Positions 1,140 through 64,000 of a stretch of DNA of 64,000 nt are shown piece by piece. Numbering within the stretch: the first letter of the stretch is position 1; every line of letters begins with the position of its first letter. A model generated the notes under the pieces. It was not told the origin of the DNA. It ran no database searches and saw nothing but the letters and a program-made list of their open reading frames with translations. A program made the translations under genes and the position numbers. Origin of the DNA: Rippkaea orientalis PCC 8801 (GTDB taxonomy: Bacteria; Cyanobacteriota; Cyanobacteriia; Cyanobacteriales; Microcystaceae); assembly GCF_000021805.1 (NCBI RefSeq), contig NC_011726.1:1674001-1738000 (forward strand). The letters are read 5' to 3'.

Positions 1140-1275
1140 TTCTAGTGAACAGTCATCTGTTATTAGGCAAGGGTGTCAGTGAACCATAGATAAAAGCGTA
1201 TACTTTCAATTCTTAACGCACGGATGCCTTAATCCCAGATAACAGGTGACTAATCACTCATTTTTCATTAAAAGT

Positions 1276-2010: not shown

Positions 2011-2071
2011 GGAATGGGCAATAGAAAATAAGAAAAGCTAGAATGATTGAAAGAGTTGAGAGAAAAATAAC

Positions 2072-2674
2072 ATGACAGTTACTACAGAAAAAACTATTTA
2101 TACTCCAGAAGAATATTTAGAATTAGAAGAAAACTCTACCGATAAACATGAATACCGTGATGGAGAAATCGTTCTGATGACTGGAGGAACAACTAATCAT
2201 AATCGTCTTGTTATTGATTTTTGTACGTACTTAAATCTTGCTTTAATGGAACAAAATGCTGAAGTTTTTGCCGGGGATGTTCGTTTATGGATTCCTCAAT
2301 ATCGGGAATACACTTATCCTGATATTATGGTTGTTCAAGGCAAACCCAATTATCAACCCCCAGGAACGACAACTATTATTAACCCTAGTTTAATTGTCGA
2401 AGTTTTATCAAAATCTACTAAAGGAAGAGATCGCGGTGATAAATTTCGCTATTATCGTTCTATTCCTGAGTTTAAAGAATATATTTTAATCGATCAATAT
2501 AGTATTTTAGTAGAACATTTTATTAAAATGGCTGATGGTAAATGGCTTTTAACAGAATACAAGAGTCAAGACGCTATTTTAAAGTTATCATCTGTTGCGT
2601 TTGAAATGAGTTTACAAGACTTATATAAACGGGTTGATTTTAACGAAAGTGAACAAGAACAAATAGAACAATAA
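2072..2674 (+). CDS. Uma2-family (DUF820) putative endonuclease-like protein
   Basis: A 200-residue protein with the features of the Uma2/DUF820 family that is heavily amplified in cyanobacteria: an opening YTPEEYLELEE segment, EYRDGEIVLM, a YPDIMVV motif with the conserved acidic residue, and a late LIVEVLSKST motif giving the E of the PD-(D/E)XK-like core. The cellular role of these proteins is unclear; the restriction-nuclease-like fold is family knowledge. The C terminus (SEQEQIEQ) ends early compared with longer members, and a short stretch resembling the usual Uma2 tail lies just downstream in another frame. Confidence 0.85.
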   Translation: MTVTTEKTIYTPEEYLELEENSTDKHEYRDGEIVLMTGGTTNHNRLVIDFCTYLNLALMEQNAEVFAGDVRLWIPQYREYTYPDIMVVQGKPNYQPPGTTTIINPSLIVEVLSKSTKGRDRGDKFRYYRSIPEFKEYILIDQYSILVEHFIKMADGKWLLTEYKSQDAILKLSSVAFEMSLQDLYKRVDFNESEQEQIEQ

Positions 2675-2716
2675 TATTAAGCTTTAAAAATCTCTTCTGG
2701 GGTTAAATTGAGTTCA

Positions 2717-2809
2717 GGAAAAAGGGAAGAAGCAGAAATTGAGCGTCAAGGTGCAGAACGTTTAGCTACTCGTTTGCGAGAATTAGGGGTTAATCCTGAC
2801 GAAATCTAA
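2717..2809 (+). pseudogene. Remnant of a Uma2-family C-terminal tail
   Basis: A reading frame without its own start encodes REEAEIERQGAERLATRLRE followed by LGVNPDEI and a stop. This closely resembles the coiled-coil tail of the Uma2 gene at 22899-23630 (ending TARLRELGINPDEIG). It lies about 40 bp after the stop of the upstream Uma2 gene, so it is either the detached tail of that gene, lost by a truncating mutation, or a relic of a second copy. Confidence 0.6.
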
Positions 2810-3471
2810 CCGCCCAATTTTGTCTCTCTTGAAATGTCCTTACCCATAAATGGCTTTTTTGTCAATGTGGGTTTTTTGTTGCCATTGATGTCCTCAATGT
2901 ATTTAAGTGAGTTTTCTCTATATAATTGCTTGAAAGAACTTTTTTTGAAAAATTAGGCGTTTTTTTGCTACCTTAATTTAAGTCAGTTTCATTAGGAGTT
3001 GTTTGGGTTAACATCGAGGGTTTGATCTCCATCGGACTAGATACTCGATTATCAATTAAGCTCTGCAATTTATCTAGATAACTAAGCAACTATACTCAGG
3101 GAACTCAAGGACAGATGATAACTTTTTATAAAAAATTTAGGATAAGTGATCCAAAGTATGATATTGAGGAAAACAGCGAAAGGCTGGAGAAAAATGGCAA
3201 GGGGAAAACAGATTAGTTAAATTAATCAGACTGTATACAAATTGTAATTAAAAAATTCTGAGAAAGGGGTAAAGAGAATGTTAAAAAGTGATACCCCCCA
3301 TGATATGATTAGGACTCGAAGAACAGATAAGTGAACTAACGGTTAGCTACAGTCCCCTTTTAGCAGCCGAAATAACTTTCTAAAGTTTTCTCTTATAGAC
3401 GGGTAGGTTGAGACTAACTTGCACGCAGATCAATGAGAAATTAACGATGCCATTCATGGAGGAATTACTAG
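2810..3471 (+). promoter_or_regulatory. Long rbcL upstream region
   Basis: About 660 bp with no convincing gene on either strand. It precedes the Rubisco operon and presumably contains its promoter and a long 5' leader; I could not fix a promoter with confidence. The rbcL ribosome binding site is strong (GGAGGAATTACTAG before the ATG at 3472). Confidence 0.5.
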
Positions 3472-4890
3472 ATGGTACAAGCCAAATCTAAATCAGGGTT
3501 TGAGGCAGGCGTTAAGGACTATCGCCTGACCTATTACACCCCCGACTACACCCCTAAAGATACTGATCTTTTAGCGTGCTTCCGTATGACCCCCCAACCG
3601 GGTGTTCCTCCTGAAGAAGCTGGTGCAGCCGTAGCAGCCGAATCTTCGACAGGAACCTGGACAACGGTTTGGACAGATAATTTAACTGACCTAGACCGTT
3701 ATAAAGGTCGTTGCTATGACATCGAAAAGGTAGAAAACGAAGATAACCAGTATTTTTGCTTTATCGCCTATCCTTTAGATTTATTTGAAGAAGGCTCTGT
3801 TACCAACGTATTGACCTCTTTAGTCGGTAACGTTTTCGGTTTCAAAGCCTTACGGGCTCTACGTTTAGAAGATATTCGTTTCCCCGTTGCTTTAATTAAA
3901 ACCTTCCAAGGTCCTCCCCACGGGATCACCGTTGAACGGGATAAATTAAACAAATATGGTCGTCCTTTATTGGGTTGTACCATTAAGCCCAAACTCGGTC
4001 TATCAGCTAAGAACTACGGACGCGCTGTTTATGAGTGCTTACGCGGTGGCTTAGACTTCACCAAAGACGACGAAAACATCAACTCCCAGCCCTTCATGCG
4101 CTGGCGCGATCGCTTCCTCTTCGTACAAGATGCGATCGAGAAAGCCCAAGCAGAAACCAACGAAGTTAAGGGTCACTACCTCAACGTCACCGCCGGAACC
4201 TGCGAAGAAATGCTCAAACGGGCAGAATTTGCCAAAGAGATCAAAACCCCCATCATCATGCACGACTTCTTAACAGGGGGTTTCACTGCGAACACCACCT
4301 TAGCGAAGTTCTGTCGTGATAATGGCTTATTACTGCACATCCACCGGGCGATGCACGCGGTTATTGACCGTCAGAAAAACCATGGTATTCACTTCCGCGT
4401 GTTAGCCAAGTGTTTACGTCTGTCCGGTGGTGATCACCTCCACTCTGGAACCGTCGTCGGTAAATTAGAAGGAGAACGGGGCATCACCATGGGGTTTGTT
4501 GACCTCATGCGTGAAGACTACGTTGAAGAAGATCGTTCTCGCGGTATCTTCTTTACCCAAGATTATGCTTCCATGCCTGGCACCATGCCTGTTGCGTCTG
4601 GTGGTATCCACGTTTGGCATATGCCCGCGCTGGTGGAAATCTTCGGTGACGACTCCTGCTTACAGTTCGGTGGTGGTACTTTAGGACACCCCTGGGGTAA
4701 TGCTCCTGGTGCAACCGCTAACCGTGTGGCTCTCGAAGCTTGTATCCAAGCGCGTAACGAAGGTCGCTCTTTGGCTCGTGAAGGTAACGATGTTATCCGC
4801 GAAGCTTGTAAGTGGAGCCCTGAGTTAGCTGCTGCTTGCGAACTCTGGAAAGAAATCAAATTCGAGTTTGAGGCAATGGATACACTCTAA
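3472..4890 (+). CDS. rbcL: Ribulose-1,5-bisphosphate carboxylase/oxygenase large subunit, form IB
   Basis: A full-length 472-residue RbcL. It carboxylates or oxygenates ribulose 1,5-bisphosphate in the Calvin cycle, here inside carboxysomes. Visible landmarks are the catalytic [17 protein letters not shown] segment, the carbamylated-lysine region [10 protein letters not shown] with its metal ligands, the HRAMHAV motif, and the loop 6 segment [11 protein letters not shown] with its mobile lysine. Codon use is strongly biased, as expected for a highly expressed gene. It is the first gene of rbcL-rbcX-rbcS; rbcX follows after 77 bp. Nothing is truncated. Confidence 0.99.
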
Positions 4891-4967
4891 TCGAGAATTA
4901 GTTGTTAGTTTTGAGTGAAAATACTCATTACTAACAACAGTCTCCCCGTTGGGACAGGTAGGTATCC

Positions 4968-5372
4968 ATGAACTGCAAACAAGTGGCTAAAGATACGGCA
5001 AGGGTTTTACAAAATTACCTGACCTATCAAGCTGTCCGTACTATTATTAACCAGTTATCCGAAACCAATCCGAGTCAGGCTCTTTGGCTTAGGCAATATA
5101 CCTCATCCCATAATATCCAAGAAGGAGAAGTGTATTTAGAAGAGCTAATGAACGAAAATAAGGAATTAGTGTTGCGGATTATGTCAGTGCGTGAGCATTT
5201 GGCTGAAGCTGTGCTGGAATTTCTTCCAGAGATGGTGCGGGTGGGTATTAGCCAAGCAAACATGGAACACCGCCGTCAGTTGTTAACACGATTAACTCAG
5301 TCCCAACCTGTGTCTTCCACCCCTCATCCAGAAGCCTCCGAGTCTGAGGTAGATGACTCATTTAATCCCTAA
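4968..5372 (+). CDS. rbcX: RbcX, Rubisco assembly chaperone
   Basis: A 134-residue, mainly helical protein with the RbcX pattern: TARVLQNYLTYQAVRTI at the N terminus, QLSETNPSQALWL, and a helix ending in the conserved REHLAEAVLEFLPEMVR. RbcX dimers bind the C-terminal tail of RbcL and help assemble the L8 core. The tail after residue 115 is Ser/Pro/Glu-rich and probably disordered. Its position between rbcL and rbcS is the classic order in beta-cyanobacteria. Confidence 0.96.
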   Translation: MNCKQVAKDTARVLQNYLTYQAVRTIINQLSETNPSQALWLRQYTSSHNIQEGEVYLEELMNENKELVLRIMSVREHLAEAVLEFLPEMVRVGISQANMEHRRQLLTRLTQSQPVSSTPHPEASESEVDDSFNP

Positions 5373-5402
5373 TTGGTGTACTTGATACCGAAGAGATAAC
5401 CC

Positions 5403-5738
5403 ATGAAAACTTTACCTAAAGAGCGTCGTTACGAAACCCTTTCCTATTTACCCCCTTTAACCGATCAACAAATCGTTAAACAGATTGAGTATATGTTGGA
5501 TCAGGGATTTATTCCTGGTGTGGAATTTGAAGAAAATCCCGAACCCCAGACCTATTTCTGGACAATGTGGAAGTTACCTTTATTTGGTGCTTCTTCTTCT
5601 CAACAAGTCTTAGCTGAAATCCGCGAATGTCGTTCTGAGTATCCCAATTCCTACATCCGTGTGATCGGTTTTGACAACATCAAACAATGTCAAACCATGA
5701 GCTTTATTGTTCACAAACCTAATACTCGTGGATACTAA
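5403..5738 (+). CDS. rbcS: Rubisco small subunit
   Basis: A 111-residue RbcS with the canonical opening [19 protein letters not shown], the central [19 protein letters not shown] segment and the late [14 protein letters not shown] strand. It caps the RbcL octamer to form L8S8 holoenzyme. It starts 30 bp after rbcX and closes the operon; a hairpin 40 bp downstream may terminate transcription. It can be compared with the SSUL modules of CcmM at the start of the window, which mimic this fold. Confidence 0.99.
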
Positions 5739-5778
5739 GATCTAATTGGCTTTAAATAGCTTTTAGATTGACTTTCAG

Positions 5779-5809
5779 AGCCTATCTACTCTTATAGTAG
5801 GTAGGCTTT
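5779..5809 (+). terminator. Probable terminator of rbcLXS
   Basis: A hairpin with arms AGCCTATCTACT and AGTAGGTAGGCT, loop of five bases, then a short TTTG tract. It is 40 bp after the rbcS stop. The T tract is weak, so efficiency is uncertain. Confidence 0.6.
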
Positions 5810-5866
5810 GTGGTGCGTTATGTGATAGCTCTCCCGTACTTGTGGTGATAAACAAATCTTATATTG

Positions 5867-5950
5867 TGTAGGGTGGGTTACGCACGGGGTTGATTTTGGG
5901 GAAAACCCAATCAGTCTTCATCCGTGCCGTAACCCACCAGATGATTTAAT
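5867..5950. repeat. Dispersed palindromic element, copy 1
   Basis: The element begins TGTAGGGTGGGTTACGCACG and ends CCGTGCCGTAACCCACCAGA, so its ends are inverted repeats. A second, diverged copy lies at 42484-42568, in the same orientation. Both are intergenic. It contains no gene and may be a non-autonomous mobile element or a folded RNA-level repeat. Confidence 0.75.
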
Positions 5951-6105
5951 GTAACTAATTATACATTTTTAACCAAGGTGTCGACAGAGCCGTTTTTATC
6001 AGGTTTTGTTCAGTTTTTTCTAATATCTAAATTGTTAATTTGCAGTTTCATGAATAAAATATACACGAAAACTGTTTTTTTGATCTTTTCATCTCCAAAA
6101 AGCGT

Positions 6106-6903
6106 ATGAGACATTTACAGTTGAGTAATATCTTCCTCAAGACTCCCGTTCACAACTTCCTGTTGGTAGTGGGATCGGCTCTTAGCGTCTTAGCATCGTC
6201 AGTTTCACCGAGTCTAGCAGCGAGTATTGGGGTCAATTTCTCTGGGACTGGTGTGAATACAGTCGCCTCGTCTGCTAGTCCTGGGATCGTTCCAGGGATT
6301 AACTGGAATAATATTGCTGGCGCATCGGGAAATAATATTATTTTATCGGATGATAGTGGAACAGCCACAACGACGTTATTAACGTTTAGTGCTGCCGGTT
6401 TCTTTAATGGTTTTAGCCCGACGAGCACGGCTAATCCAGCCACGAATACCCTGTACACTTCTGGTCTTTTCGGTAGCAATATTATTTCCGAAATCTCTCT
6501 CTCCCTATCGGGAATTCCCTACTCCTCCTATGACCTTTATGTATTCGCTTCTGCGGACACATCGGCAAATAATCAGTTATCAATTACTGACGGGAACACT
6601 ACTTTCTATTACGCGAGTAACGGTCAATTCAATTCGGCGGCAACAACGTTATTACAAACTACGAGTACGATACCAGGTTCACCGACTACAGGACCCGGAC
6701 AGTACCAGTTATTTGCCGGGCTAACTGGATCGAGTATCACACTCACCACAGGAGGTTCGCTTACTAACATTCTCTCAAATAACGTTTTCGGTTTCCAGAT
6801 TGTCAGTACCACGAGTACGACCATTCCTGAACCTTCAATGATCATAGGTCTACTATTTCTCGGCGGGGGTTTGTTTGCAGGTAGTAAACGAAAAAATTCG
6901 TAA
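6106..6903 (+). CDS. PEP-CTERM sorting-domain protein (exported, function unknown)
   Basis: A 265-residue protein with an N-terminal signal peptide (hydrophobic stretch FLLVVGSALSVLASSVSPSLAA, shown as position about 18-39), a Ser/Thr/Asn/Gly-rich beta-type body, and a C terminus consisting of the PEPSM motif, a hydrophobic helix and basic residues (KRKNS). This tripartite C terminus is the PEP-CTERM signal processed by exosortase in the family model. The protein is probably exported and anchored or released at the cell surface. No enzymatic motif is seen. A strong terminator follows. Confidence 0.85.
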   Translation: MRHLQLSNIFLKTPVHNFLLVVGSALSVLASSVSPSLAASIGVNFSGTGVNTVASSASPGIVPGINWNNIAGASGNNIILSDDSGTATTTLLTFSAAGFFNGFSPTSTANPATNTLYTSGLFGSNIISEISLSLSGIPYSSYDLYVFASADTSANNQLSITDGNTTFYYASNGQFNSAATTLLQTTSTIPGSPTTGPGQYQLFAGLTGSSITLTTGGSLTNILSNNVFGFQIVSTTSTTIPEPSMIIGLLFLGGGLFAGSKRKNS

Positions 6904-6934
6904 TTGACTATACTTGACCATCAAAACACTTAAC

Positions 6935-6971
6935 AGTGCGTTAAAAAATTTTTAGCGCACTATTTTTTTAT
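6935..6971 (+). terminator. Rho-independent terminator after the PEP-CTERM gene
   Basis: Arms AGTGCG(T)TAAAAA and TTTTTAGCGCACT form a long hairpin, followed by a run of T. It starts about 30 bp after the stop and lies between convergent genes, so it could serve both. Confidence 0.85.
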
Positions 6972-6989
6972 TTATTCCTCTGATATCGA

Positions 6990-7415
6990 TCATTTGCAAC
7001 TCCAATCTTCGATCAATAAATCTAAAATTTGTTTGAAGTCAGTATTATTTCGAGTTAATAAAACTGATTTATTGACCATTACAACTGACGCGATTTTCAG
7101 ATCCATTGTACCTAGTTTTCGATAAATTTTTCTAAGCCTTTCAAATTGTTGAGCAGCCTCTTCATTAAACTCAAAAATTGGGATTTTACAGTAAATCTTT
7201 ACCTGTTGATTTAGCTTTTTATAAGCTTGAACTTGCTCTGCTATTGTTTTACTTTTAGTGATATAGTTTAGCCATCCTCGTAGTTGTTCTTCATAAGTAA
7301 TAATAGTTACTCCTACTTGGTTAGGATTGATCTTCGCTAATCTATTCCGCAAAGGTTCAGCAGTAACTCCTCCACGCTGTAAAATACTTATATGATCAGT
7401 ATCTAAAATATACAT
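6990..7415 (-). CDS. PIN-domain ribonuclease toxin (VapC-like)
   Basis: A 141-residue PIN protein. It opens with YILDTDHISIL, giving the first metal-binding Asp (residue 5), has the conserved Glu in TYEEQLRGW, and ends with MDLKIASV and LLTRNNTDF, which supply the remaining acidic and Asn positions. VapC toxins cleave RNA, often tRNA, and are neutralised by a partner encoded just upstream. Here the upstream gene ends 9 bp before this start and carries an antitoxin-like C terminus, so the two likely form one toxin-antitoxin operon. Confidence 0.88.
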   Translation of the reverse strand: MYILDTDHISILQRGGVTAEPLRNRLAKINPNQVGVTIITYEEQLRGWLNYITKSKTIAEQVQAYKKLNQQVKIYCKIPIFEFNEEAAQQFERLRKIYRKLGTMDLKIASVVMVNKSVLLTRNNTDFKQILDLLIEDWSCK

Positions 7416-53320: not shown

Positions 53321-53630
53321 GGGGGCGTGGCGGAATGGTAGACGCTACGGACTTAAGTAAATTGAGCCTTGTTAGAGTAATCTATCAAGTGTAAGCTCTC
53401 AAATTCAGGGAAACCTAAGTCTAGTTAATAGATAGGGCAATCCTGAGCCAAGCTGGAATCGTAAGATTTCTGAAGGTGCAGAGACTCAACGGGAGCTACC
53501 CTAACAGGATAAGCTGAGGGTAAAGAGAGAGTCCAATTCTCAAAGCTGAGGTAAAGCAGTAGCGAAAGCTGCAAGAGAATGAAAATCCGTTGACCGCAAG
53601 GTCGTGAGAGTTCAAGTCTCTCCGCCCCCA
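53321..53630 (+). tRNA. trnL(UAA): tRNA-Leu(UAA) interrupted by a group I intron
   Basis: The acceptor arms are GGGGGCG at 53321-53327 and CGCCCCC at 53623-53629, followed by the discriminator A at 53630. CCA is not encoded. The T stem GAGAG/CTCTC with loop TTCAAGT and the D arm GGCGGAATGGTAGACGC are clear. After removal of 53355-53581 the anticodon arm reads CGGACTTAAAATCCG, giving anticodon UAA. The long variable arm is in GTTGACCGCAAGGTCGTG. This gene borders the transposon and is probably its attachment target. Confidence 0.95.
53355..53581 (+). ncRNA. Group I intron (tRNA-Leu type, IC3-like)
   Basis: A 227-nt insertion after U34 of the anticodon, ending in G. The conserved core is visible: CAGGGAAACCTAAGTCTAG (P region), AATCCTGAGCCAAGC (Q), GGTGCAGAGACTCAACGGG (R) and AAAGAGAGAGTCC (S). 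This intron is the ancient cyanobacterial and plastid tRNA-Leu(UAA) intron. No ORF inside; the minus-strand frame across it is spurious. Confidence 0.93.
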
Positions 53631-53691
53631 TTACCATTTTAAGAGATGCTGCGAGACTTTCTATTATTTAAAGTTTGTTTTTGCCGCATCG

Positions 53692-53736
53692 GCAAGGTTA
53701 TGCCTGAAAATCTGACAGCAAAGCTATGCCTGAAAA
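53692..53736 (+). repeat. Two 19-bp direct repeats, candidate TnsB sites at the transposon end
   Basis: GCAAGGTTATGCCTGAAAA at 53692-53710 and GCAAAGCTATGCCTGAAAA at 53718-53736 differ at two positions and start 26 bp apart. They lie between the tRNA and the tniQ stop, where the end of a Tn7-like element should be. Spacing and length fit transposase-binding repeats. A small palindrome TTGCCG-CAT-CGGCAA (53681-53695) overlaps the first copy. Confidence 0.6.
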
Positions 53737-53757
53737 ATTTTAAGTCAAATAGTCTTG

Positions 53758-55149
53758 TCAGGTATCTAACAATCTCCAATTACGTCGAGTTCGGTTTAGG
53801 ACTTCTCTGACTTCTTTATCTCGGAAACAACCGGGCTGACCGATATGTAATGCAACTCGTTGTTCGCTAGGGTAAATACCTTGTTGTTGAAGTTGTTTAA
53901 CTGCTTTTTCTACTTCTATACAAACTTTCTGAATACGTTCCAAGCGAGATTGTTTTTTGTAAATGAGGTAACGTTGAGAAATTTTCTTACAAAGCTCAGG
54001 AAAGTGTCTTCGCAGCACTTTATTGCTGATTCCTAATCGTTTAGCAACTTGAGTCATTGGGCGAGGATGGGTTTCTTGGAAAGCTTCTGAGAGAGCAGCA
54101 TGAATTTGCGCATGGTTTAAAGTGTTCTTGAAGATTTTCGGGCGTTCATTTACAGAAGAAGGAATACTCTTTTGATGAAGAATCATGTTTGTGATATTTC
54201 CCTCGTTGATTATTGAATCTAGTAAATCAACGCGACACAAATAGCATAGTGCTAACAAGCGACTAAGTTGAGGTAAGCTTTTACCTTTAACCCACATCCA
54301 TACCGTATTTTTCGGCATATTAGCCCATCTAGCAAATTCTGCAATGTTACCTTTTGTTGATTGGTGGATAATAGCTTGAATAATTTGAGAAATCTGTTTT
54401 TTTGAGGGAGATTTAATAGTTGAAGGAAAAGATAATAAGTTTCCCAAACAATCCGCAATCCATAAAAAATAGCTTTTATCTTTAAATTTGGTATGAATTG
54501 ATAAAGAAGTATTAAGATAATCTTCAATGTTTCCAAGCCAATTAGAACAATTAGAACAATAACCCAATTGATTCTTAGGTGATAACACTGATACAGACTT
54601 TTTACAAGAAGGACAAAGTGTTTGTAAAGAATATTGATGAATTGAACATAATCGAATTACTTCAATTTGCCAAATTAAAGGGTCAAATATAATTTGATTA
54701 TTAGTTCGCCATTCTTGATAACAAAATGGACACCATGCCTTATGGTTTCGGATTAATTTTCTGTTTGGAAAAATGTTTTTCCAATTCAACATAGTTAAAT
54801 TAGATAAATTTTGATATAGGGTGAGTTCTGATAAAGCTTGAACCGAATCTTCGGCAAGAAGACCACAACCATTGATTGCTCCTGTTTGATTGCGTAAGCA
54901 AAGTAAATTGGTGGTTTTATATGTTTTGGAAATACAAGGGATGATTTCTTTATAAATTAGAGTTCCCACATGAACCCCATGAGAATGAGCCAAACGAGTC
55001 ACATAACTGGTTAAACTCTCAACCATTGGGGTTCCTATCCCCATCGGTTGTAAATGATGCAAACGACTTCGAGGAGGCATGGGAAATTTCTCTGGACTCC
55101 ATAGCTCATCGTTGGTATAGGGTTGAATTTTGTTTATGTCTATGTCCAT
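53758..55149 (-). CDS. tniQ: TniQ/TnsD-family target-selection protein
   Basis: A 463-residue TniQ protein. The N-terminal motif region includes PMVESLTSYVTRLAHSHGV, followed by two zinc-binding sites: CPFC (140-143) with C168/H171, and CPSC (179-182) with CSNC (198-201). The C-terminal half has two probable helix-turn-helix regions (GNIAEFARWANMPKNTVWMW; MTQVAKRLGISNKVLRRHF). TniQ links target recognition to the TnsC ATPase. The length and DNA-binding C terminus fit a TnsD-type homing protein that could recognise tRNA-Leu, but it could instead be the Cascade-bound TniQ. It is divergent from the cas operon and ends next to the tRNA. Confidence 0.88.
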   Translation of the reverse strand: MDIDINKIQPYTNDELWSPEKFPMPPRSRLHHLQPMGIGTPMVESLTSYVTRLAHSHGVHVGTLIYKEIIPCISKTYKTTNLLCLRNQTGAINGCGLLAEDSVQALSELTLYQNLSNLTMLNWKNIFPNRKLIRNHKAWCPFCYQEWRTNNQIIFDPLIWQIEVIRLCSIHQYSLQTLCPSCKKSVSVLSPKNQLGYCSNCSNWLGNIEDYLNTSLSIHTKFKDKSYFLWIADCLGNLLSFPSTIKSPSKKQISQIIQAIIHQSTKGNIAEFARWANMPKNTVWMWVKGKSLPQLSRLLALCYLCRVDLLDSIINEGNITNMILHQKSIPSSVNERPKIFKNTLNHAQIHAALSEAFQETHPRPMTQVAKRLGISNKVLRRHFPELCKKISQRYLIYKKQSRLERIQKVCIEVEKAVKQLQQQGIYPSEQRVALHIGQPGCFRDKEVREVLNRTRRNWRLLDT

Positions 55150-55302
55150 CGGAGATTAATTCATCTACAATTTTTTTGATAAAATCTTTCTTAAAATTTA
55201 CATCAAGAGTTTTCCCAAATTCTTATATTAAGTTATCCTATACTATTATAGTTTATTTTAAACTAATTCATAAAAAATATAAATAATTTTTTGCTGACAA
55301 TA

Positions 55303-55968
55303 ATGACAGATACAGTTATTAACAGTGAAGAACATCTAGATATGATTTTTAAGCTGAGGGGTGCACCGATTCCTCTTGATAATGGCTATGTTATTTATTC
55401 TGCTTTGTGTCGAATTTGCCCGACGCTTCATGAACTCAAAGACGTGGGGATTCATCCCATTGCTGGGATTCCTACTCAGAATAAGTTTCTTGAACTGACT
55501 CCTAATTCTTGTCTAAAAATTCGCATTCATCATTTACAAATTCCTATAATTTATCCTTACCTAACAGGTCAAACTTTTGAAATTGGACAAGAATCTTATC
55601 AACTGAATATTCCCGATTATCAAGCAATACGTTCCTCAGATAGTCTTTATTCTCGATTAGTCGTTATTAAAGGTTATCAAGACTCCTCTAGCTTTCTTGA
55701 AGCAGTTCAGCGTCAAATGGATAGTTTAGCAATACAAGGGAATGTAGAACTTCTGACTCGACAGAATGGAACACCGCAACGACGACAATTGACCATTCGT
55801 AAGCAAGGCAATGAGTTTAAAATAAGAGGGTTTGGCGTTAAGATAAGCGAACTGAGTCCAGAGGACTCTTTAACCTTGCAAGAACAAGGAATCGGGGGAA
55901 AACGGAAAATGATGTGTGGGATATTTGTTCCGGCGACTCGTCCTAAAGATGAGAGGAAAACCCCATGA
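55303..55968 (+). CDS. cas6: Cas6, crRNA-processing endoribonuclease (I-B/Myxan type)
   Basis: A 221-residue RAMP protein. The glycine-rich loop GIGGKRKMMCG lies at 196-206 near the C terminus, typical for Cas6. N-terminal FKLRGAPIPLDNGYVIYSAL matches the Cmx6-like Cas6 of Myxan/Dev-type I-B systems. It should cut in the CRISPR repeat 3' of the GCC-GTTA-GGC hairpin. The ATG at 55303 was chosen; an upstream TTG adds four residues. The stop overlaps the cas8 start by ATGA, so translation is coupled. Confidence 0.88.
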   Translation: MTDTVINSEEHLDMIFKLRGAPIPLDNGYVIYSALCRICPTLHELKDVGIHPIAGIPTQNKFLELTPNSCLKIRIHHLQIPIIYPYLTGQTFEIGQESYQLNIPDYQAIRSSDSLYSRLVVIKGYQDSSSFLEAVQRQMDSLAIQGNVELLTRQNGTPQRRQLTIRKQGNEFKIRGFGVKISELSPEDSLTLQEQGIGGKRKMMCGIFVPATRPKDERKTP

Positions 55969-57512
55969 CGGTTGCAACTCAAAGCAAAATTTCCTTATCT
56001 TTGACTGCTTGTGATACTACCATCATGCACCGTGCAGGAATGGCCGGACTTTACCTAACTTTAAAGCGATTAGAAGAAAAATATCCTGATTTTCGTCAGC
56101 GTGAGGGAAATTTATCATGGTCATTAACCCCTGATACTATTGATTTATTTTGGGAAGCAATTGATTTTAGTGCGTTGGATTGGTTGCTGAAGGAATCTTT
56201 TCAACTGGATGATAATGGGTTGATTTGTTTGACAGGATTAGATGATTATTCAGAGTTGAGACAAAAAATTGAGCTTAATGAAGCAATAAAAGCAGTTTTT
56301 CTCCGTCATAATAAATTTTATCAAGCAGGAGAAGCTAAAAAAATCTCTTTCACCGTTGAAGAACGTGAAGTTTCCTATTCCTACAAACCTCTAATATGGT
56401 ATGCACATCAAACCTTTGCTAAAGAATTATGCGACACAGATACTCAACAATTAAAACAGGATTATCTTCAAATTACCAGTTGGTTGTATTTAGGGGGAAT
56501 TGTCCGTCATGCGAGAGCAGACAAAAAGACTAAACTAGAAGAAAAGCCTGAATATGCTTTAGCCTTGTTATTTGTTCCTGTTGTTTGTCATTATTGTCTT
56601 TTTCACCTTCCGTCTGAGGATGTAAATTCAAGGAAACCTCATCGTTATCTTGTTGTGATTCCAGAAATTAATAATTTTGAAGATGCTTCTCGAAGAAGAT
56701 GGCGATTACAGCAATTAGAACCTCAACAACTTCATGTTACTAATATGAGCGAAGCGGGACTGCTTTATTATAGTTTGGATGAAATTCAAGCAAATGAAAA
56801 TTATAGTCAAGCTTGTCAAGTTTGGTTGTATGAGAAAATGAATAAAGCATCTTATCAACGAGTGTTGACGATGGTTGAAGAGATTGAAATTGATAAGGAA
56901 ATGATTACTACCTATCAACAAGTTAAACAATACTTTCAACCCAATTATCAACATATTTACCCTAATAATATTCTGATTGAGGTAAATCTGGTTCGGTCAC
57001 TAATTGCAGAAAATTTAAGGCAAAAACAGCCTTGGTGGTTTAATTTTTGGAAGAAATTGATTGATGAAGATTCTAAAAACTATTTATTTAAACAGTTATT
57101 ATCTAATCAAAAAGGGGTTAAATTCATGACAAAAAATAGTGAACGAGATGAAAAATATCTCGCTTTTATTGAGGTATTTCAGCAAGCGATGAGGGCAAAT
57201 TTTGCCAAAATCTATGCAAAAACTGAGAGAGGAAAAAACCCTCTCTTTCAGAAGAAAGCAGAACGATTACGGGCAGAGTTAAATTGTTGCTATGATGAGA
57301 TATCATTTCAGCACTATTTAGCTGATTTTTTAGCAAGAGGCGGATTAAATAAACCATTACAAGGTCAGAAAAGAGAGGTTTTATTATTGATTCAACAAGT
57401 GCCTTGGGAAAAATTAAGAATTTGGGCATTATTAGGGATTGCTAGTTACGAACCTAAACCCAAAAATTTGCAAGAATTAGAAGGAATTAAAGATGAATCA
57501 GAAGAAGAATAA
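55965..57512 (+). CDS. cas8: Cas8 (Cmx8-like), large subunit of the type I-B effector
   Basis: A 515-residue protein. The opening LTACDTTIMHRAGMAGLYL resembles Cmx8 of the Myxan/Dev subtype. The middle part has LYLGGIVRHARADKKTKLE and LLFVPVVCHYCLFHLPS. The last 130 residues are helical and form a Cas11-like region, with an internal start (see separate entry). Cas8 recognises the PAM-proximal DNA in Cascade, and in CASTs it contacts TniQ. It overlaps cas7 by 20 bp. Confidence 0.82.
   Translation: MTVATQSKISLSLTACDTTIMHRAGMAGLYLTLKRLEEKYPDFRQREGNLSWSLTPDTIDLFWEAIDFSALDWLLKESFQLDDNGLICLTGLDDYSELRQKIELNEAIKAVFLRHNKFYQAGEAKKISFTVEEREVSYSYKPLIWYAHQTFAKELCDTDTQQLKQDYLQITSWLYLGGIVRHARADKKTKLEEKPEYALALLFVPVVCHYCLFHLPSEDVNSRKPHRYLVVIPEINNFEDASRRRWRLQQLEPQQLHVTNMSEAGLLYYSLDEIQANENYSQACQVWLYEKMNKASYQRVLTMVEEIEIDKEMITTYQQVKQYFQPNYQHIYPNNILIEVNLVRSLIAENLRQKQPWWFNFWKKLIDEDSKNYLFKQLLSNQKGVKFMTKNSERDEKYLAFIEVFQQAMRANFAKIYAKTERGKNPLFQKKAERLRAELNCCYDEISFQHYLADFLARGGLNKPLQGQKREVLLLIQQVPWEKLRIWALLGIASYEPKPKNLQELEGIKDESEEE
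57126..57512 (+). CDS. cas11: Cas11-like small subunit from an internal cas8 start
   Basis: An in-frame ATG at 57126 inside cas8 is preceded by AAAAAGGGGTTAAATTC, a Shine-Dalgarno at good spacing. It would make a 128-residue helical protein beginning MTKNSERDEKYLAFIEVF and ending at the cas8 stop. In several type I systems (I-B, I-C, I-D) the small subunit Cas11 is known to be made this way, and this operon has no separate cas11 gene. Not proven here. Confidence 0.55.
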   Translation: MTKNSERDEKYLAFIEVFQQAMRANFAKIYAKTERGKNPLFQKKAERLRAELNCCYDEISFQHYLADFLARGGLNKPLQGQKREVLLLIQQVPWEKLRIWALLGIASYEPKPKNLQELEGIKDESEEE

Positions 57513-58464
57513 AATACCAAATTATTATCTTTATGGAACAGTTTTGACTCGCTATGGCTTAGCCTCTTTAAGTCACGGGATGCGACAAGGTAATAAATCC
57601 ATTTTACAAAAAGCCTATTGGGATGGCAAAATTCATTCTTTAGTGGGGTCAAGTTCTCTACGGTGGGCGTTACGGTTTTATCTTCAAGAAGAAGGTTATC
57701 CTGTTAACAGAGTATGGGATAAAGATGAACATATTAATCGATTAACGGATGATAATTTTAACCCAGATCAATTTTATGATGATGATATTTTTGGCTTTGC
57801 GTTATTGGAATCTGTAGAAGAAGAAACGGTAGAAGATAAAACACAACCATCAACTCGAAGACGAGGAAAACGAAAGAAATCAGGGACGACTGCTCAGAGA
57901 ACAGGGGCATTAAGTATGAATAATGCTATTTCTTTAACTCCCTATGACGGTTCTTTGAAGTTAGGGGCAAAAAGTGGTAGGGATAAGGATAGCACATCGC
58001 TTCATTTTACGGAATATCATAATACTCGTTATCAATATTATTTTGGGCTTAATGCTACTCATCTTAAAGATTGTTCTCGGATTTTTCCATTAATTGATGG
58101 GATTATGGATATGCCGAAAGTGGGAGGAAGTGCTAATATTTTCAGTTATCCTTTTTGTCCTGATAGTTTAGTTTTTCAATGGACAAATCATTTTGCGTCT
58201 TATATTTCCTATTGTTTTGAATCCGTTGATGGGAAAGGGAGAAATATTAAATTGACTCAAGATTTTATCAATGAGGTGGAATGCGGACAGATTAATCCTG
58301 ATGAGTTATGGATTGGAGGGGCAATTGTTAATGATTTACGAGAACTAGAAAATTTTGAGAAATCCTTACTAAAACAGATACATCTTTATCGAAATCGTAA
58401 TGAGTTGGTAGCCGATTTAAAGGAAGTGATTAAACAAGATTTGGGGTTAAAAGACTCACAATGA
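57493..58464 (+). CDS. cas7: Cas7, crRNA backbone subunit (DevR/Cst2-like)
   Basis: A 323-residue RAMP-type backbone protein. The start YYLYGTVLTRYGLASLSHGM and the segment HSLVGSSSLRWALRFYLQEE match the DevR/Cas7 family of I-B systems. A lysine/arginine-rich loop (TRRRGKRKKSGTTAQ) lies near residues 122-136. Multiple copies coat the crRNA guide. It starts inside cas8 and ends overlapping cas5 by ATGA. Confidence 0.85.
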   Translation: MNQKKNKIPNYYLYGTVLTRYGLASLSHGMRQGNKSILQKAYWDGKIHSLVGSSSLRWALRFYLQEEGYPVNRVWDKDEHINRLTDDNFNPDQFYDDDIFGFALLESVEEETVEDKTQPSTRRRGKRKKSGTTAQRTGALSMNNAISLTPYDGSLKLGAKSGRDKDSTSLHFTEYHNTRYQYYFGLNATHLKDCSRIFPLIDGIMDMPKVGGSANIFSYPFCPDSLVFQWTNHFASYISYCFESVDGKGRNIKLTQDFINEVECGQINPDELWIGGAIVNDLRELENFEKSLLKQIHLYRNRNELVADLKEVIKQDLGLKDSQ

Positions 58465-59099
58465 ATACACCTTTAGTTATCTATCTAGATGTTCCTTTTG
58501 TGACGTTTAGGGAGTTTCATGCAAGGGAGATGGGAAGGACTTATCCTGTTCCTCCTCCAGCGACGGTATATGGGATGTTATTGTCTTTGGTGGGGGAAAC
58601 GGATGTTTATCGTCATTGTGGGGTAGAATTGGCAATTGCCATGTTATCTGAAGCAAAAAAATCGCGGATTTTGCGTCAAATGAGACGGTTTAAGCAGAAG
58701 GATTTTAGTCATGCAGAGAATGTGAATCCTAGCTATCAGGAGATTTTGTCGAATTTGAAGTGCTTAATTTGGGTTCGTTCTGAGGCTGAGATGATGCAAC
58801 CAAGCTTAAAGGAGAGGATAGAGTTTACTTTTGAGCGTCCTGAGTTAGTAAGACGGTTTGGGTGTTTATTTTTAGGGGAAAGTGACCAGTTAATTAAGAC
58901 GATACGGTTAGTTTCTGAGGATTATCGGGAGGGGGTCAGACGATGGTTAATAAGGGATAATGGAGGTAGGTTAACGTTACCCTATTGGGTTGACCATCTG
59001 GGGTCAAGAAATACCCGTTTTTTGCGGTATCGGGTAGAAGAAATGAATCAGTTATCTCCTCCTGATTTCGCATGGACTTCAATTCAATCATCGGTTTGA
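58461..59099 (+). CDS. cas5: Cas5 (DevS-like), Cascade subunit
   Basis: A 212-residue RAMP protein with FVTFREFHAREMGRTYPVPP followed by PATVYGMLLSLVGE, the typical Cas5 opening, in which the protein binds the crRNA 5' handle. The C terminus includes FLGESDQLIKTIRLVSEDYR. It is the last gene of the operon; no cas3 follows, and the short CRISPR array lies 250 bp downstream. Confidence 0.87.
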   Translation: MNTPLVIYLDVPFVTFREFHAREMGRTYPVPPPATVYGMLLSLVGETDVYRHCGVELAIAMLSEAKKSRILRQMRRFKQKDFSHAENVNPSYQEILSNLKCLIWVRSEAEMMQPSLKERIEFTFERPELVRRFGCLFLGESDQLIKTIRLVSEDYREGVRRWLIRDNGGRLTLPYWVDHLGSRNTRFLRYRVEEMNQLSPPDFAWTSIQSSV

Positions 59100-59348
59100 C
59101 AAGTACCTCATAATCGAGAAGGAGATTGAAGGGAGAAAATTGACCACAATGCTGATGGGATAAGGGATAGGACGATTTTAGCTGGTTAATAGGTGCTTGC
59201 AAAGCTTTGAAAAGTTTACAGGGACTGGGTTTTAGCAGTTGAAGGAATCAGAAAATTGGCTCAGTTTCATGTAGTTTTAAACTCTACAATCGGATTTCTT
59301 GTAAACTTTAAAATAGGCCTTCATCAGTAAAGGGTTTTCACCTTCGCT
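59100..59348 (+). promoter_or_regulatory. Leader region of the CRISPR array
   Basis: About 250 bp between cas5 and the first repeat, AT-rich and without a gene. It should hold the array promoter; I could not fix it with confidence. Confidence 0.45.
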
Positions 59349-59533
59349 GTGATTCATGGCTTCATGCCGTTAGGCGTTGCTCAATCCTTAAAAAATCGGG
59401 CTAAGTGTTAAAGAGGCTCAACGATGTGATTCATGGCTTCATGCCGTTAGGCGTTGCTCAAGGAAAATATCCAGGGATTTTCGTCCCAATTAACTGACGT
59501 GATTCGTGGCTTTATGCCGTTAGGTGTATTAAT
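59349..59533 (+). CRISPR. Mini CRISPR array: two perfect repeats, one degenerate repeat, two spacers
   Basis: The 35-bp repeats at 59349-59383 and 59426-59460 are identical: GTGATTCATGGCTTCATGCC followed by GTTAGGCGTTGCTCA. The third at 59499-59533 has three changes in the first 28 bases and a diverged end. The spacers are 42 bp (59384-59425) and 38 bp (59461-59498). The hairpin GCC-GTTA-GGC is followed by 8 nt (GTTGCTCA), fitting the 5' handle left by Cas6 in type I-B. Neither spacer matches the tRNA or another place I could see in the window. Confidence 0.93.
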
Positions 59534-59636
59534 TTAATCAAACTGCATTTATTGGAGTATATTATTATATTTCACCATCGCTATTAACTATTACAAAACT
59601 TTTAAGCAAAATCTTCAACGAGTATCTTAATTCATC

Positions 59637-62600
59637 ATGCCTTTATCGGGTGGCGCAACTGATAAAATTGGAAATCGTTACGAAGGTCTATGGACAATAG
59701 ACTGCTTGTTAGACTTAATTGACGAAAAAGCAAACAATATTGAGATAGAGTTCATTAGTTTAAATCACTTAAATGAACAAGCGACTACTATACGCTTAGA
59801 ACCTGTGGGAGAAGAAGGAGAAGGAGTTGAGTTTTGGCTTCAGAGAGAAGATATTCGAGAATATCATCAAGTCAAGCGACAAAATACAAAGGGACGTTGG
59901 ACATTAGCTGACTTAGAAACTAAACAAATTTTGACCAATTTTAAGAAAAAACTTGAGAATAATCAAACCCATTGTTATTTTATTTCGATTAATAACGCTT
60001 ATCAACTTGAGGAACTAGCAGAAAGAGCAAGAAGTTCACAATCTTGGATAGAATTTGTTAGAGAATTTTTAGATGCAAAAGATTGGCGAGAAAGCTTTCA
60101 TGATTTAGTGAAATATTGGTATAAGTATCAACAACTAGAAATCGAACAAGCGATTGAGGATTTTAAAAGTGGAAAATTAAGTCATCAACAGCAAGCTATT
60201 ATAAATGTAGCTGAAAATTCTTATGAGAAATTAAAAAGAATATATGTAGAAACAATTAGTGAGAGAAAACTACGTCAAACAGTTGTGGATAATATCAAAC
60301 GGTTAATTGAATCTAAAAGTAATGATTTTCCTTCTCATACTGACTATCAAACGGCCGTTGATATTTTAGCAGGATTCGCTTTAGACAGTATTCATAAAAT
60401 CCTAACAGCTAGTGATATTTGGAAACATTTAGACACAAGAGGTTATCAACGCTGTAATTATAGTAAAAATTATCATGTCTTAGCAGCAATAGATAAAGCG
60501 AATCAATTATATTTATCTCCTTTAGAAAAACAAACAGTAATTGCTGGACAATCTATTCCAAGGCAAGAAGCAGAAGAAGCGTTCAACTTACTGGTTAATA
60601 CTCAAAATAAAAAAGGAGTATTTCTAATGGGAGAAGCAGGAGTTGGTAAAAGTGGAGTTATGTTACAAATTGCTAAAAAATTAGAGCAAGAGAACATTAC
60701 TTTTTTTGTATTTCGGATAGATAATTTACCCCCAGAAGTTAATCCTGATGATGTTGGCAGAAAATACAGATTACCTCTTTCTCCTACAATCATACTGGCA
60801 AATATTAGTAAGTATTCCCAAAAACAAACAGTCTTGATTATTGATCAATTAGATGCAGTCAGTCAAGTATCAGGAAGAAATCCGCAGTTTTTTGATTGTA
60901 TTCATAGTCTTCTTGAACAAACAAAACAATTTTCTAAGGTGCGTGTATTAGTTGCTTGTCGTAAATTTGATTTAGATAATGACTCTCGGATTAAAAATTT
61001 AATAGGGAAGCAAGGAATTTTAGAAACAGTTGAAATCCAGAGATTATCATCGGAACAAGTTAAACAAACAGTTCAAAATTTAGGACTTGATGCAAGTAAA
61101 TTAAATCAGAAGCAAGTTGATTTATTATCTTTACCTTTACATTTAGGACTTTTAGCACAAATATCTCAGGATTCAACAATTAACAACTTAAATTTTGAAA
61201 CTGCAAATGATTTATTTGATAAGTTCTGGGAATTTAAGCAAACTAAACTTTATGGAGATGAGAAAACTAAGCATTTAGTTCAATGGAATGAAGTAATAGA
61301 TAAAATCTGCGATAATATCAGCACAAAACTCAATCAAACTTTATCAATTAGTAAGTATCTTCTTGATGATTATTTAATTGATACAAGAATAATGATTTCA
61401 GAAAATGTTCTTATTCAAGAGCAAGATAAAATTAAATTTTTTCATGAAAATTTCTTTGATTATGCTTTTGCAAGAAGATTTACTGCTAGAGAAAAACAAT
61501 TATTATCATTTTTACGAGAAGACGAACAACATTTATTTAAACGCGCTCAAGTTCGACAAATTTTGCAATTTGAAAGATCAATCAATTTTAATCAATATCT
61601 TTATGACATAGAAGAATTATTAAATAGTAAGCTATTAACGAGTGAAGATGATAGAAAGCAATTATTAAATAGTGAAGATATTCGCATTCGCTTTCATCTC
61701 AAACAATTGGTAATTAGTTTACTGTCAAATTTAGAGAACCCCGCAGAAGAAGAATGGGAAATTATTCACCTATTTCTGACAGATAACGAGTCATCTTTAT
61801 TTAATCATGCTTGGGGAATATTATATCAGCCACAATGGTTTATGTTAGCTAAAGATTTAGGTATTATTGAACAATGGTTACGAGATGATAATGATTTGAT
61901 AGTTGATAAGACGGTACGCCTAATCAGTTCGACAGCGAGTCAATTACCCGATGAAGTTTCACCTTTAATTGAACCATTTATTGAAAACTCATCAGAAAAA
62001 TGGTTGGATAGATTTCTATATATAGCAGATAGAATCTCTTTTGAACTAGACAAGAGCAGAAAATTATTAGATTTATTTTTAACCTTGCTCAATAAAGAAA
62101 AATTAGATAATTTAAGAGATACTTTAGCCATGAATGGTGATTTTTGGACACTTATTTTCTCTATATCTGAAAAAAACTCTGCATGGACTTGTGAAATTAT
62201 TGGTCATTATCTTAATCGAAGATTAGAATTATATTTAATGCAAATTTGGTTATTACACTGGATTTATCAATGTTGTCTAAATATTCATCCTTCTTTTCTA
62301 AAGCAATATACACAACTAACAATAAGGTTAAATCCTTTTGATACCTATAGTTATAATTTAAAGCAAGATAAGGCAACAATTCCAGACACACAGCATACTG
62401 AAATTTTTCTAAAAAGTGCTGATAAAGCTCCAAAAGATTATGTAATTAATGTTTTACCATTTATGCTATCTGTCATAGAATTGACATCTATCAAAGATGA
62501 TGAAAAACCCTATGAAGATAACGTATGGTATTATAGAAGTTATGGTGGAGGTCATGGAATAGAAAGTGCTATCTTCAAAGGAATGGAAATCGCCTTATCG

Positions 62601-64000
62601 AATTTAGCGAGAAATAATCCTGAAGAATTTACTCAAATTATTGACAAATATAATTTATTATCATCAGGTTCGGAAACCATTCAATTTTTACTAATACGAG
62701 CTTATACAGCAAATGGTTTTAAATTTGTTGATGAAATAGTAGAATATTTATGCGATAAACCCTATCGCTTAGAAACAGGTTATTCAGGAGTTAGCGATAA
62801 TTCTTTATCTGCTAGATTTTGGGCGAGTCGTCAATTAATTAAAGCGATTTTACCTTACTGTTCACAAAATCATCTTGATAAGCTTGAACAATTAATATTA
62901 ACTTATGGCTCTTTTAATAACGATTGGCCTAAATATCATCCTCAAATAATAATTAATCTAAACTATAAACACGCTAAATTTTTAGATGTGCAGTTAATAA
63001 GTCACTATCCTGAAATCATTGTTTATTTGGCAATATATGATTACTATAAAGAATTAAAAGAATTATTATATATTTCTCGTAACTGGCTGAGAAGAAAACG
63101 AGAATATCCTCAGTTTATTATACTAGACGGTATCAATGATATTTTAATTGAACAATTTGTAAAGCTTGTTCTCATCAAGTTTAATTTAATACAGAATATC
63201 TTTAGTTTTTCTCGATTACTTTTCTTAAATACGAAATTCTTTATTCCTAGTCAAAGACTAACACAACGATTTTTTGAGTTACAGCGTAAGTTTATGTCTT
63301 TAGGATGGATTAAAGCATCTGAAAGCATCAAACCTACACCGATAGGAGAGATAGCAAGCGTTGTCAGTTCTCCAATTCCAAAAAATGCTACTGAAAAAAT
63401 GACTGATGAGCAATGGTTAGAGGCTATTAAAACATACGATTGTGAACATGAAAATAAAATGGGAGATTTAATTGGTGAAGCCTATGAATTATCTGATAAT
63501 CTTGAAAAAGAAGTAAAAAAAGATCCTTATCGCTTTGCAAAACTAATAGATCAATTTCCTGATAATACTAATCTTTATTACTTTAATGCTATTTTAAGAG
63601 GAATTGCTGAAACTGAAGTTGAAATAGAGATGGAAACAGTATTAAATGTCTGTCAACGTTGCCACCAATTACCACACAAACCTTGTGGTCGTGAAATTAG
63701 TCAGACAGTCACAAAATTAGCTTATCTACCTTGGGATGAAATAGGATTTGATATCATTACTTATTATGCGTTACATGATCCAAACCCTGACAAAGAATGG
63801 CAACCTTTTCAAGTGATTAATGGAGATCAATCATTAGCTAACGATATTTATATTAAAGGAATTAATTCAGTTCGAGGGAGAGCGGTAGAAGCCATTGCTC
63901 ATCTAATTTTTAAAGACAAAGAACGTACAGTTTATTTTAAAGAAGCTTTACAACAAATGGTAAAAGATCCCTTTCTTGCTGTGAGGTCTTGTGTTGCTCA
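59637..64000 (+). CDS. Large P-loop NTPase with nuclease-like N terminus, 3' end outside window (possible defence cargo)
   Basis: The frame is open from ATG 59637 to the end, at least 1454 residues. The first 95 residues resemble a restriction-nuclease fold: GNRYEGLWT (12-20), GVEFW (63-67) and EYHQVKRQ (75-82), giving an E...QxK core. The P-loop region has Walker A GEAGVGKS (332-339) and Walker B VLIIDQLD (399-406). The long remainder is helical and repeat-like. The plan resembles STAND-type anti-phage proteins with an effector nuclease. No exact family is claimed. It is AT-rich and adjacent to the CRISPR array, so it is probably transposon cargo. Confidence 0.75.
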   Translation, partial: MPLSGGATDKIGNRYEGLWTIDCLLDLIDEKANNIEIEFISLNHLNEQATTIRLEPVGEEGEGVEFWLQREDIREYHQVKRQNTKGRWTLADLETKQILTNFKKKLENNQTHCYFISINNAYQLEELAERARSSQSWIEFVREFLDAKDWRESFHDLVKYWYKYQQLEIEQAIEDFKSGKLSHQQQAIINVAENSYEKLKRIYVETISERKLRQTVVDNIKRLIESKSNDFPSHTDYQTAVDILAGFALDSIHKILTASDIWKHLDTRGYQRCNYSKNYHVLAAIDKANQLYLSPLEKQTVIAGQSIPRQEAEEAFNLLVNTQNKKGVFLMGEAGVGKSGVMLQIAKKLEQENITFFVFRIDNLPPEVNPDDVGRKYRLPLSPTIILANISKYSQKQTVLIIDQLDAVSQVSGRNPQFFDCIHSLLEQTKQFSKVRVLVACRKFDLDNDSRIKNLIGKQGILETVEIQRLSSEQVKQTVQNLGLDASKLNQKQVDLLSLPLHLGLLAQISQDSTINNLNFETANDLFDKFWEFKQTKLYGDEKTKHLVQWNEVIDKICDNISTKLNQTLSISKYLLDDYLIDTRIMISENVLIQEQDKIKFFHENFFDYAFARRFTAREKQLLSFLREDEQHLFKRAQVRQILQFERSINFNQYLYDIEELLNSKLLTSEDDRKQLLNSEDIRIRFHLKQLVISLLSNLENPAEEEWEIIHLFLTDNESSLFNHAWGILYQPQWFMLAKDLGIIEQWLRDDNDLIVDKTVRLISSTASQLPDEVSPLIEPFIENSSEKWLDRFLYIADRISFELDKSRKLLDLFLTLLNKEKLDNLRDTLAMNGDFWTLIFSISEKNSAWTCEIIGHYLNRRLELYLMQIWLLHWIYQCCLNIHPSFLKQYTQLTIRLNPFDTYSYNLKQDKATIPDTQHTEIFLKSADKAPKDYVINVLPFMLSVIELTSIKDDEKPYEDNVWYYRSYGGGHGIESAIFKGMEIALSNLARNNPEEFTQIIDKYNLLSSGSETIQFLLIRAYTANGFKFVDEIVEYLCDKPYRLETGYSGVSDNSLSARFWASRQLIKAILPYCSQNHLDKLEQLILTYGSFNNDWPKYHPQIIINLNYKHAKFLDVQLISHYPEIIVYLAIYDYYKELKELLYISRNWLRRKREYPQFIILDGINDILIEQFVKLVLIKFNLIQNIFSFSRLLFLNTKFFIPSQRLTQRFFELQRKFMSLGWIKASESIKPTPIGEIASVVSSPIPKNATEKMTDEQWLEAIKTYDCEHENKMGDLIGEAYELSDNLEKEVKKDPYRFAKLIDQFPDNTNLYYFNAILRGIAETEVEIEMETVLNVCQRCHQLPHKPCGREISQTVTKLAYLPWDEIGFDIITYYALHDPNPDKEWQPFQVINGDQSLANDIYIKGINSVRGRAVEAIAHLIFKDKERTVYFKEALQQMVKDPFLAVRSCVA

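Follow-up and report, generated by a model that had tools for sequence, protein, structure and literature searches.

The window analysed here is a 64,000-nucleotide stretch of the cyanobacterium Rippkaea orientalis PCC 8801 (bases 1,674,001–1,738,000 of a 4,679,413-base contig, in a genome of 4 contigs and 4.79 Mb). Beside the transfer RNA (tRNA) gene tRNA-Leu(UAA) it holds a locus that continues past the right edge, which we read, with a probability of about 96%, as a complete type I-B2 CRISPR (clustered regularly interspaced short palindromic repeats)-associated Tn7-like transposon (CAST), most likely the R. orientalis PCC 8801 CAST already in print, which presumably goes by the name RoCAST. 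All coordinates are in window numbering, and values above 64,000 lie beyond the right edge.

The element spans 53,662–69,917 (16,256 bp) and begins and ends with the same perfect 25-bp terminal inverted repeat, TATTATTTAAAGTTTGTTTTTGCCG, as seen when the two sides were compared. Directly outside both ends stands a perfect 5-bp target site duplication, CTTTC, at 53657–53661 on the tRNA side and at 69918–69922 on the far side. The right end (53662–53751, + strand), in which the terminal repeat is accompanied by inner repeats resembling transposase sites, faces the tRNA at a fixed distance, and the left end occupies 69793–69917. End-type repeats by the tRNA had been noted in the original prediction; with 1 mismatch allowed, their 16-base core gave 5 matches across the 4.79-Mb genome, all exact, and the reversed control gave 0: once in the right end, twice in the left end, once in a copy just past the left end and once elsewhere. 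All nine genes between the ends are open reading frames. The subtype is I-B2, because TnsA and TnsB are fused and TniQ and TnsD are separate proteins, and by analogy the element is predicted to transpose by both RNA-guided and TnsD-guided routes.

The claim of a type I-B CAST thus stands, with tnsAB and tnsC present, no cas3 or adaptation module in the element and true transposon ends. The accompanying suggestion that it was a fresh find does not, as the element appears in print already. A table in PMC13199841 lists an "R. orientalis PCC 8801 CAST" with the protospacer-adjacent motif ATG and the repeat end CAA, crediting Wimmer et al. 2022 (doi 10.1016/j.molcel.2022.01.026), and R. orientalis is named there among the I-B systems natively capable of RNA-guided transposition. 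Because the array repeat here also ends in CAA, the element is probably known rather than new; it is most likely the very same one, and we know of nothing in which it differs from the entry as tabulated.

Transposition genes, Cascade genes and array

The transposase genes had been expected beyond the window, and they were found 0.8–5.7 kb right of its edge, within 6 kb, all on the minus strand: tniQ (64829–65818, 329 amino acids; Pfam TniQ over the cut-off), tnsC (65815–66936, 373 amino acids; AAA_22 and TniB over the cut-off) and a tnsA-tnsB fusion (66930–69698, 922 amino acids) with TnsA N-terminal, rve and Mu C-terminal domains. A search of the genome with the Mu transposase C-terminal family gave 6 places, one of them 3.4 kb past the window edge. 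The best solved relative of the small TniQ is a type I-B TniQ chain (8fcu), and the closest solved chain to the fused TnsAB is the fused transposase 9bw1. Three acidic DDE positions of the TnsB part align with those of an I-F3 TnsB, and 9bw1 has Ala at the first of them; which of the aligned residues count as catalytic is our assumption. At the other end of the element, the TniQ/TnsD gene of the original prediction was recovered as a TniQ-family tnsD (53758–55149, − strand, 463 amino acids; Pfam TniQ 2.7e-20, PADLOC TniQ_IB 1.7e-57, PDB 8v32 TnsD 1.8e-98), and its product presumably homes to tRNA genes.

Next to tnsD, the cas6-cas8-cas7-cas5 operon occupies 55303–59099 on the plus strand. It consists of cas6 (55303–55968; profile matches to Cmx6/Cas6b2), cas8 of the Cmx1/Csx13 type (55965–57512; NCBIfam 4.1e-75 and 7.1e-20, PDB 8fcj Cas8 6.3e-225), a DevR-like cas7 (57493–58464) and a DevS-like cas5 (58461–59099; NCBIfam 1.8e-39). 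The profile matches that had been foreseen were obtained for TniQ, cas6, cas8 and cas5 and failed for Cas7, which matched DevR at 1.8e-14, under NCBIfam's own cut-off; the assignment of Cas7 is instead backed by PADLOC Cas7b (2.7e-17) and by 68–72% identity to the cas7 of four relatives. A PDB Cas11 chain aligns to residues 388–514 of Cas8, and an internal start at codon 388 (ATG behind AAAAAGGGG) likely makes Cas11, whose predicted reading frame is 57126–57512 (+).

A mini-array follows at 59349–59534 (+), with two identical 36-nt repeats (59349–59384 and 59426–59461) and a degenerate one (59499–59534), again in line with the original prediction. No cas1–cas4 was detected among the nine main open reading frames scanned in the element, small overlapping frames lying outside the scan. 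We found no cognate I-B adaptation partner in the genome, because the sole cas1 belongs to a type I-D locus 1.2 Mb away, the Cas3_HD profile had no match anywhere in the genome, and the repeat had no further copy in the genome at up to 3 mismatches. The type I-D locus also carries cas3d, cas10d, csc2, csc1 and cas6.

The array was also compared with 291 genomes as a 206-base query, which gave any match at E 0.01 in 23 genomes and no second match in its own. An 85% match over 33 nt, including 29 nt of spacer 2, in five g3 genomes (one related genus) was rejected, as it covers the last 4 repeat nt and has an E of only ~0.003 per genome. A separate 85% match over 33 nt (query 128–160, E 0.002) was seen in G027.

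The Cas proteins are of the MYXAN/I-B families and would as such also suit an ordinary type I-B CRISPR defence fragment that happens to lie beside an unrelated TniQ-type transposon. We give this almost no credence: the cas genes sit between true transposon ends, the element yielded neither Cas3 nor an adaptation gene, Cas3_HD finds nothing in the genome, and relatives retain the same neighbours of the cas genes, namely TnsD and a tRNA. The ends, together with tnsAB, tnsC and tniQ, refute it as far as sequence can.

The working that we propose for the CAST starts from its gene content, ends, duplication, orientation and tRNA distance and the likely Cas11 start, all seen in the sequence, and its biochemical steps are inferred from the family. 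TnsD would bind the 3′ part of the tRNA-Leu(UAA) gene and recruit the TnsC ATPase, and the fused TnsAB would excise the element and paste it ~30 nt downstream with the right end towards the tRNA, so that 5 bp of the target are duplicated and the tRNA stays intact. To reach other targets, the array transcript would be cut by Cas6, a Cas8-Cas11-Cas7-Cas5-Cas6 complex would bind the target matched by the CRISPR RNA with no cleavage (there being no Cas3), and the small TniQ would couple this Cascade complex to TnsC and TnsAB.

The tRNA site and the homing distance

The adjacent tRNA-Leu(UAA) gene, which had been predicted, was located at 53321–53630 (+) by ARAGORN with introns allowed. At default settings ARAGORN returned no tRNA at the locus, as the gene is interrupted by a group I intron (about 53355–53581; RF00028 at 53345–53552, 93.1 bits, 2.7e-23). 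Counted from the last base of this tRNA, the start of the element is at +32, and we take the gene as its homing site.

Other TnsD loci were compared with this arrangement. An order-level TnsD search matched 43 of 291 genomes; 18 of the 20 loci it listed (L026 and L029 were dropped, the best match ending at residue 410) and five more (L097, L099, L117, L118 and L119) made up a set of 23. In 18 of these, own included, tnsD has a tRNA downstream on the opposite strand, which is Leu(UAA), Leu(UAG), Val(GAC), Val(UAC), Ala(GGC) or Thr(UGU); the remaining five had no tRNA within the sequence stretch examined. We then read the terminus at 20 sites, that is, at 17 of the 18 tRNA loci (L097, with its tRNA 2.9 kb off, was left out) and at L034, L074 and L075, which were located by their ends. 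The terminus lay at +31 to +34 from the last base of the tRNA in all 20. Where a site offered several candidate triplets, the one opening the end consensus was picked by eye; the GAT end of L034 was placed by alignment, and the last base of the tRNA may be off by one in L013, L020 and L021. The distance agrees with the insertion 30–33 nt downstream of a tRNA-Leu gene described for CyCAST in PMC10293859.

Several observations weigh against a complete and working CAST. The terminal triplet is TAT at both ends and TGT at 16 of the 20 sites read by eye, and TAT in place of TGT could weaken end cleavage; the exceptions elsewhere are L023 (TAT, at +32), L118 (TAC) and L034 (GAT), also by eye. The array is minimal, with two intact repeats and a third carrying 10 mismatches, and its spacers of 41 and 37 nt compare with 34–36 nt in five relatives. 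No convincing target was found for either spacer: blastn of both against plasmids and phages returned only E ≥1, and degenerate patterns, one per spacer and covering part of each, gave 0 matches in viral contigs. In Nostoc carneum (L098), which has close cas genes, no TnsD, TniQ, TnsC or TnsAB match was obtained within 10 kb on each side of them. Finally, an empty, ancestral site was not demonstrable among 50 family genomes: some part of the tRNA region was matched in 49 of them, and the matches that reach the tRNA 3′ end break off no more than 12 bases from it, while lpxB, which lies right of the element, is apart from tRNA-Leu in all four same-genus genomes that have both on one contig. TnsD was not found in the four same-genus genomes searched.

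The altered termini and the degenerate third repeat, together with the fact that both other end copies in the genome are remnants, raise the question whether this is a former CAST that looks complete and has become fixed in place by its TAT ends and decayed array. We consider this improbable, as all nine genes are open, the same 25 bp stand at both ends, which would not be kept under decay, the duplication is perfect, and L023 likewise appears (by eye) to have TAT at +32.

Leftover ends, cargo and other elements

A 26-bp terminal copy in right-end orientation stands directly past the far CTTTC (69923–69948), and most simply it would be left over from a previous insertion at exactly this base pair. 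Alternatively, the present element may have given rise to the copy by duplicating locally or in the course of repair, consistent with the copy breaking off after 26 bp and with the end core revealing no further part of a second element on its right. This origin seems to us the less probable one, because the copy lies exactly past CTTTC and in right-end orientation, as expected of a previous insertion at an equal TnsD distance. Further right, at 70066–74653 (L008:17066–17477, L009:1614–5653), a HicA/HicB toxin-antitoxin pair and genes for a type ISP restriction-modification protein and a Uma2-family protein precede lpxB (the last named by eye), and the genes from HicA/HicB to Uma2 could be cargo of an earlier insertion.

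An orphan right end was found elsewhere in the genome, near contig base ~3,921,591, at +32 from tRNA-Ala(GGC). It is identical to the own right end at 76 of 90 positions, compared with 62–69 of 89 for the right ends of seven other elements, and no left end for it was found in 20 kb on the inner side. From these two remnants we infer that the lineage may once have occupied both the base pair of the present insertion next to tRNA-Leu and the tRNA-Ala(GGC) site. Another genome of the family (G303) also has such orphan ends near tRNA-Val(UAC) and tRNA-Ala(GGC) (L074 and L075), with no CAST protein match in the stretches examined.

The cargo of the element is one gene, for a 1716-amino-acid NACHT/STAND-type NTPase with a HEAT-like C-terminus (59637–64787, + strand, crossing the window edge at 64000; NACHT 3.5e-6 over the cut-off, HEAT below it). 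Its residues 1–80 resemble, by eye, a restriction-type nuclease (Q-V-K motif), which is our own impression and was confirmed by no profile; a predicted structure of residues 1–330 was set aside at a pLDDT (predicted local distance difference test) of 37. A role in defence would be a guess.

The genome also harbours type V-K elements. At C3:3,090,392–3,097,095 (L072:10392–17095) a V-K CAST core consists of Cas12k (682 amino acids, 3e-265), then a V-K type TnsB, and two short open reading frames that correspond to TnsC and TniQ by size alone; I-B2 and V-K elements and a type I-D CRISPR locus thus coexist in one genome. A second V-K type TnsB (567 amino acids, 1.7e-194) lies at C3:3,075,387–3,078,468 (L071:15387–18468) with TnsC- and TniQ-sized frames, and the one open reading frame above 600 amino acids in the 20 kb examined around it is a reverse transcriptase. 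The other Mu C-terminal matches are at C3:3,049,004 and 3,054,780, with one more at 4,136,814.

Relatives and a possible exchange of TnsD

In a phylum-wide sample of 386 genomes, Cas8 was matched at E ≤1e-20 in 19, and it was more than 60% identical along nearly the whole protein in only three of those 19 (own included in both counts); a scan of named genomes gave four, namely Chroococcus sp. FPU101, Nostoc carneum NIES-2107, a Crocosphaera metagenome-assembled genome and Aphanothece hegewaldii (a fragment). The gene order from TnsD to TnsAB is the same in G075, and in L097 it is the same up to the edge of the stretch examined.

Most proteins of the element are well conserved among close I-B2 elements: TnsAB is 77% identical (G075 only), TnsC 76–83% (three elements, two by partial alignments), TniQ 68–72% (three), Cas6 72–77%, Cas8 63–66%, Cas7 68–72% and Cas5 77–80%. 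These values omit TniQ for G566 and L099, in whose examined stretches no TniQ gene lies and the match (35% and 44%) is to TnsD, and Cas7 for G075, whose gene matches in two pieces. TnsD, in contrast, shows 40% identity in every comparison with a relative that carries it (G075, G566, L097 and L099). Since the other proteins stand at 63–83% and TnsD at 40%, while the three elements near tRNA-Val(GAC), which are G075, G566 and L097 (2.9 kb away in the last), share TnsD at 67–75% and Cas8 at 68–82%, the sequences suggest that TnsD is decoupled from the remaining element proteins and that the homing protein was exchanged.

Alternatively, TnsD may have stayed with its element and diverged rapidly as the lineage shifted to tRNA-Leu(UAA). 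It is true that the C-terminal half is the more diverged (28–32%, versus 51–53% for the N-terminal half) and that in a tree of 22 TnsD sequences (L027 was left out) the own TnsD has no supported neighbour, so that no donor is identified. The N-terminal TniQ half has also diverged, at 51–53% compared with 78–80% among the three tRNA-Val elements, and its partner TnsC is conserved at 76–83%. Moreover, TnsD identity is 39–40% both where Cas8 reaches 66% and where it drops to 43%, the latter being seen in a pair of more distant I-B elements (Cas8 43–46%, TnsD 39–40%). The tree unites the tRNA-Val trio as a clade (100/100) and places the Crocosphaera I-B2 TnsD with Ala-site TnsDs, the latter at 81/89, which is under the tree's own mark of firm support; this last grouping also speaks against divergence in place, which we regard as possible but doubtful.

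Whether TnsD relationships follow the tRNA was examined on the same tree. The tRNA labels require 10 changes compared with a shuffled mean of 12.4, and a value as low was reached in 8 of 200 shuffles. Taken label by label, values as low occurred in 15 of 500 for Val and in 87 of 500 for Ala, and Leu was not clustered. Clustering by tRNA is thus only partial and does not justify the claim of a tRNA code.

Returning to exchange, the I-B2 TnsD may act as a swappable head: the lineage would have kept its transposase and Cascade, swapped TnsD and so moved between tRNA genes, leaving fossil ends at tRNA-Ala(GGC) and tRNA-Leu(UAA). We hold the odds of this history to be about even. In another genome (L105, G021, 557–7414), a different set of TnsAB, TnsC and TnsD (44%, 35% and 40% identical) stands at tRNA-Leu(UAA) next to a TniQ that shares 71% identity with the I-B2 TniQ of the present element, which looks like the arrival of a second element beside what is left of an I-B2 one.

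Among the systems described, PmcCAST (Tn7744), a type I-B2 element of the Peltigera membranacea cyanobiont 210A, resembles the present one, as far as PMC11406308 and PMC12719977 describe it, in its fused TnsA-TnsB, TniQ, tRNA-targeting TnsD and type I-B Cascade and in the Cas11 of the solved I-B complex. According to these sources it homes to tRNA-Val, whereas the element here is at an intron-containing tRNA-Leu(UAA), and its TnsD is only 40% identical to those of the three tRNA-Val I-B2 elements. The type I-D systems CyCAST and McCAST, as presented in PMC10293859 and PMC11406308, share related TnsAB and TnsC, the dual TniQ/TnsD and tRNA homing, but have a type I-D Cascade, in CyCAST with an adaptation module.

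The worth of the element is comparative, lying in its precise ends and homing distance. CASTs, which integrate DNA and leave the target uncut, are in use as tools. What we add is mainly history, in the form of the comparison of TnsD, the 26-bp terminal copy and the orphan right end, three points at which only limited literature searching was aimed and which may already be in print. If the swappable head is true, the TnsD found here, joined to another I-B2 system, should shift homing from tRNA-Val to tRNA-Leu. The comparison suggests that the choice of tRNA by an I-B2 CAST may change by the exchange of one protein, with the rest of the element kept.

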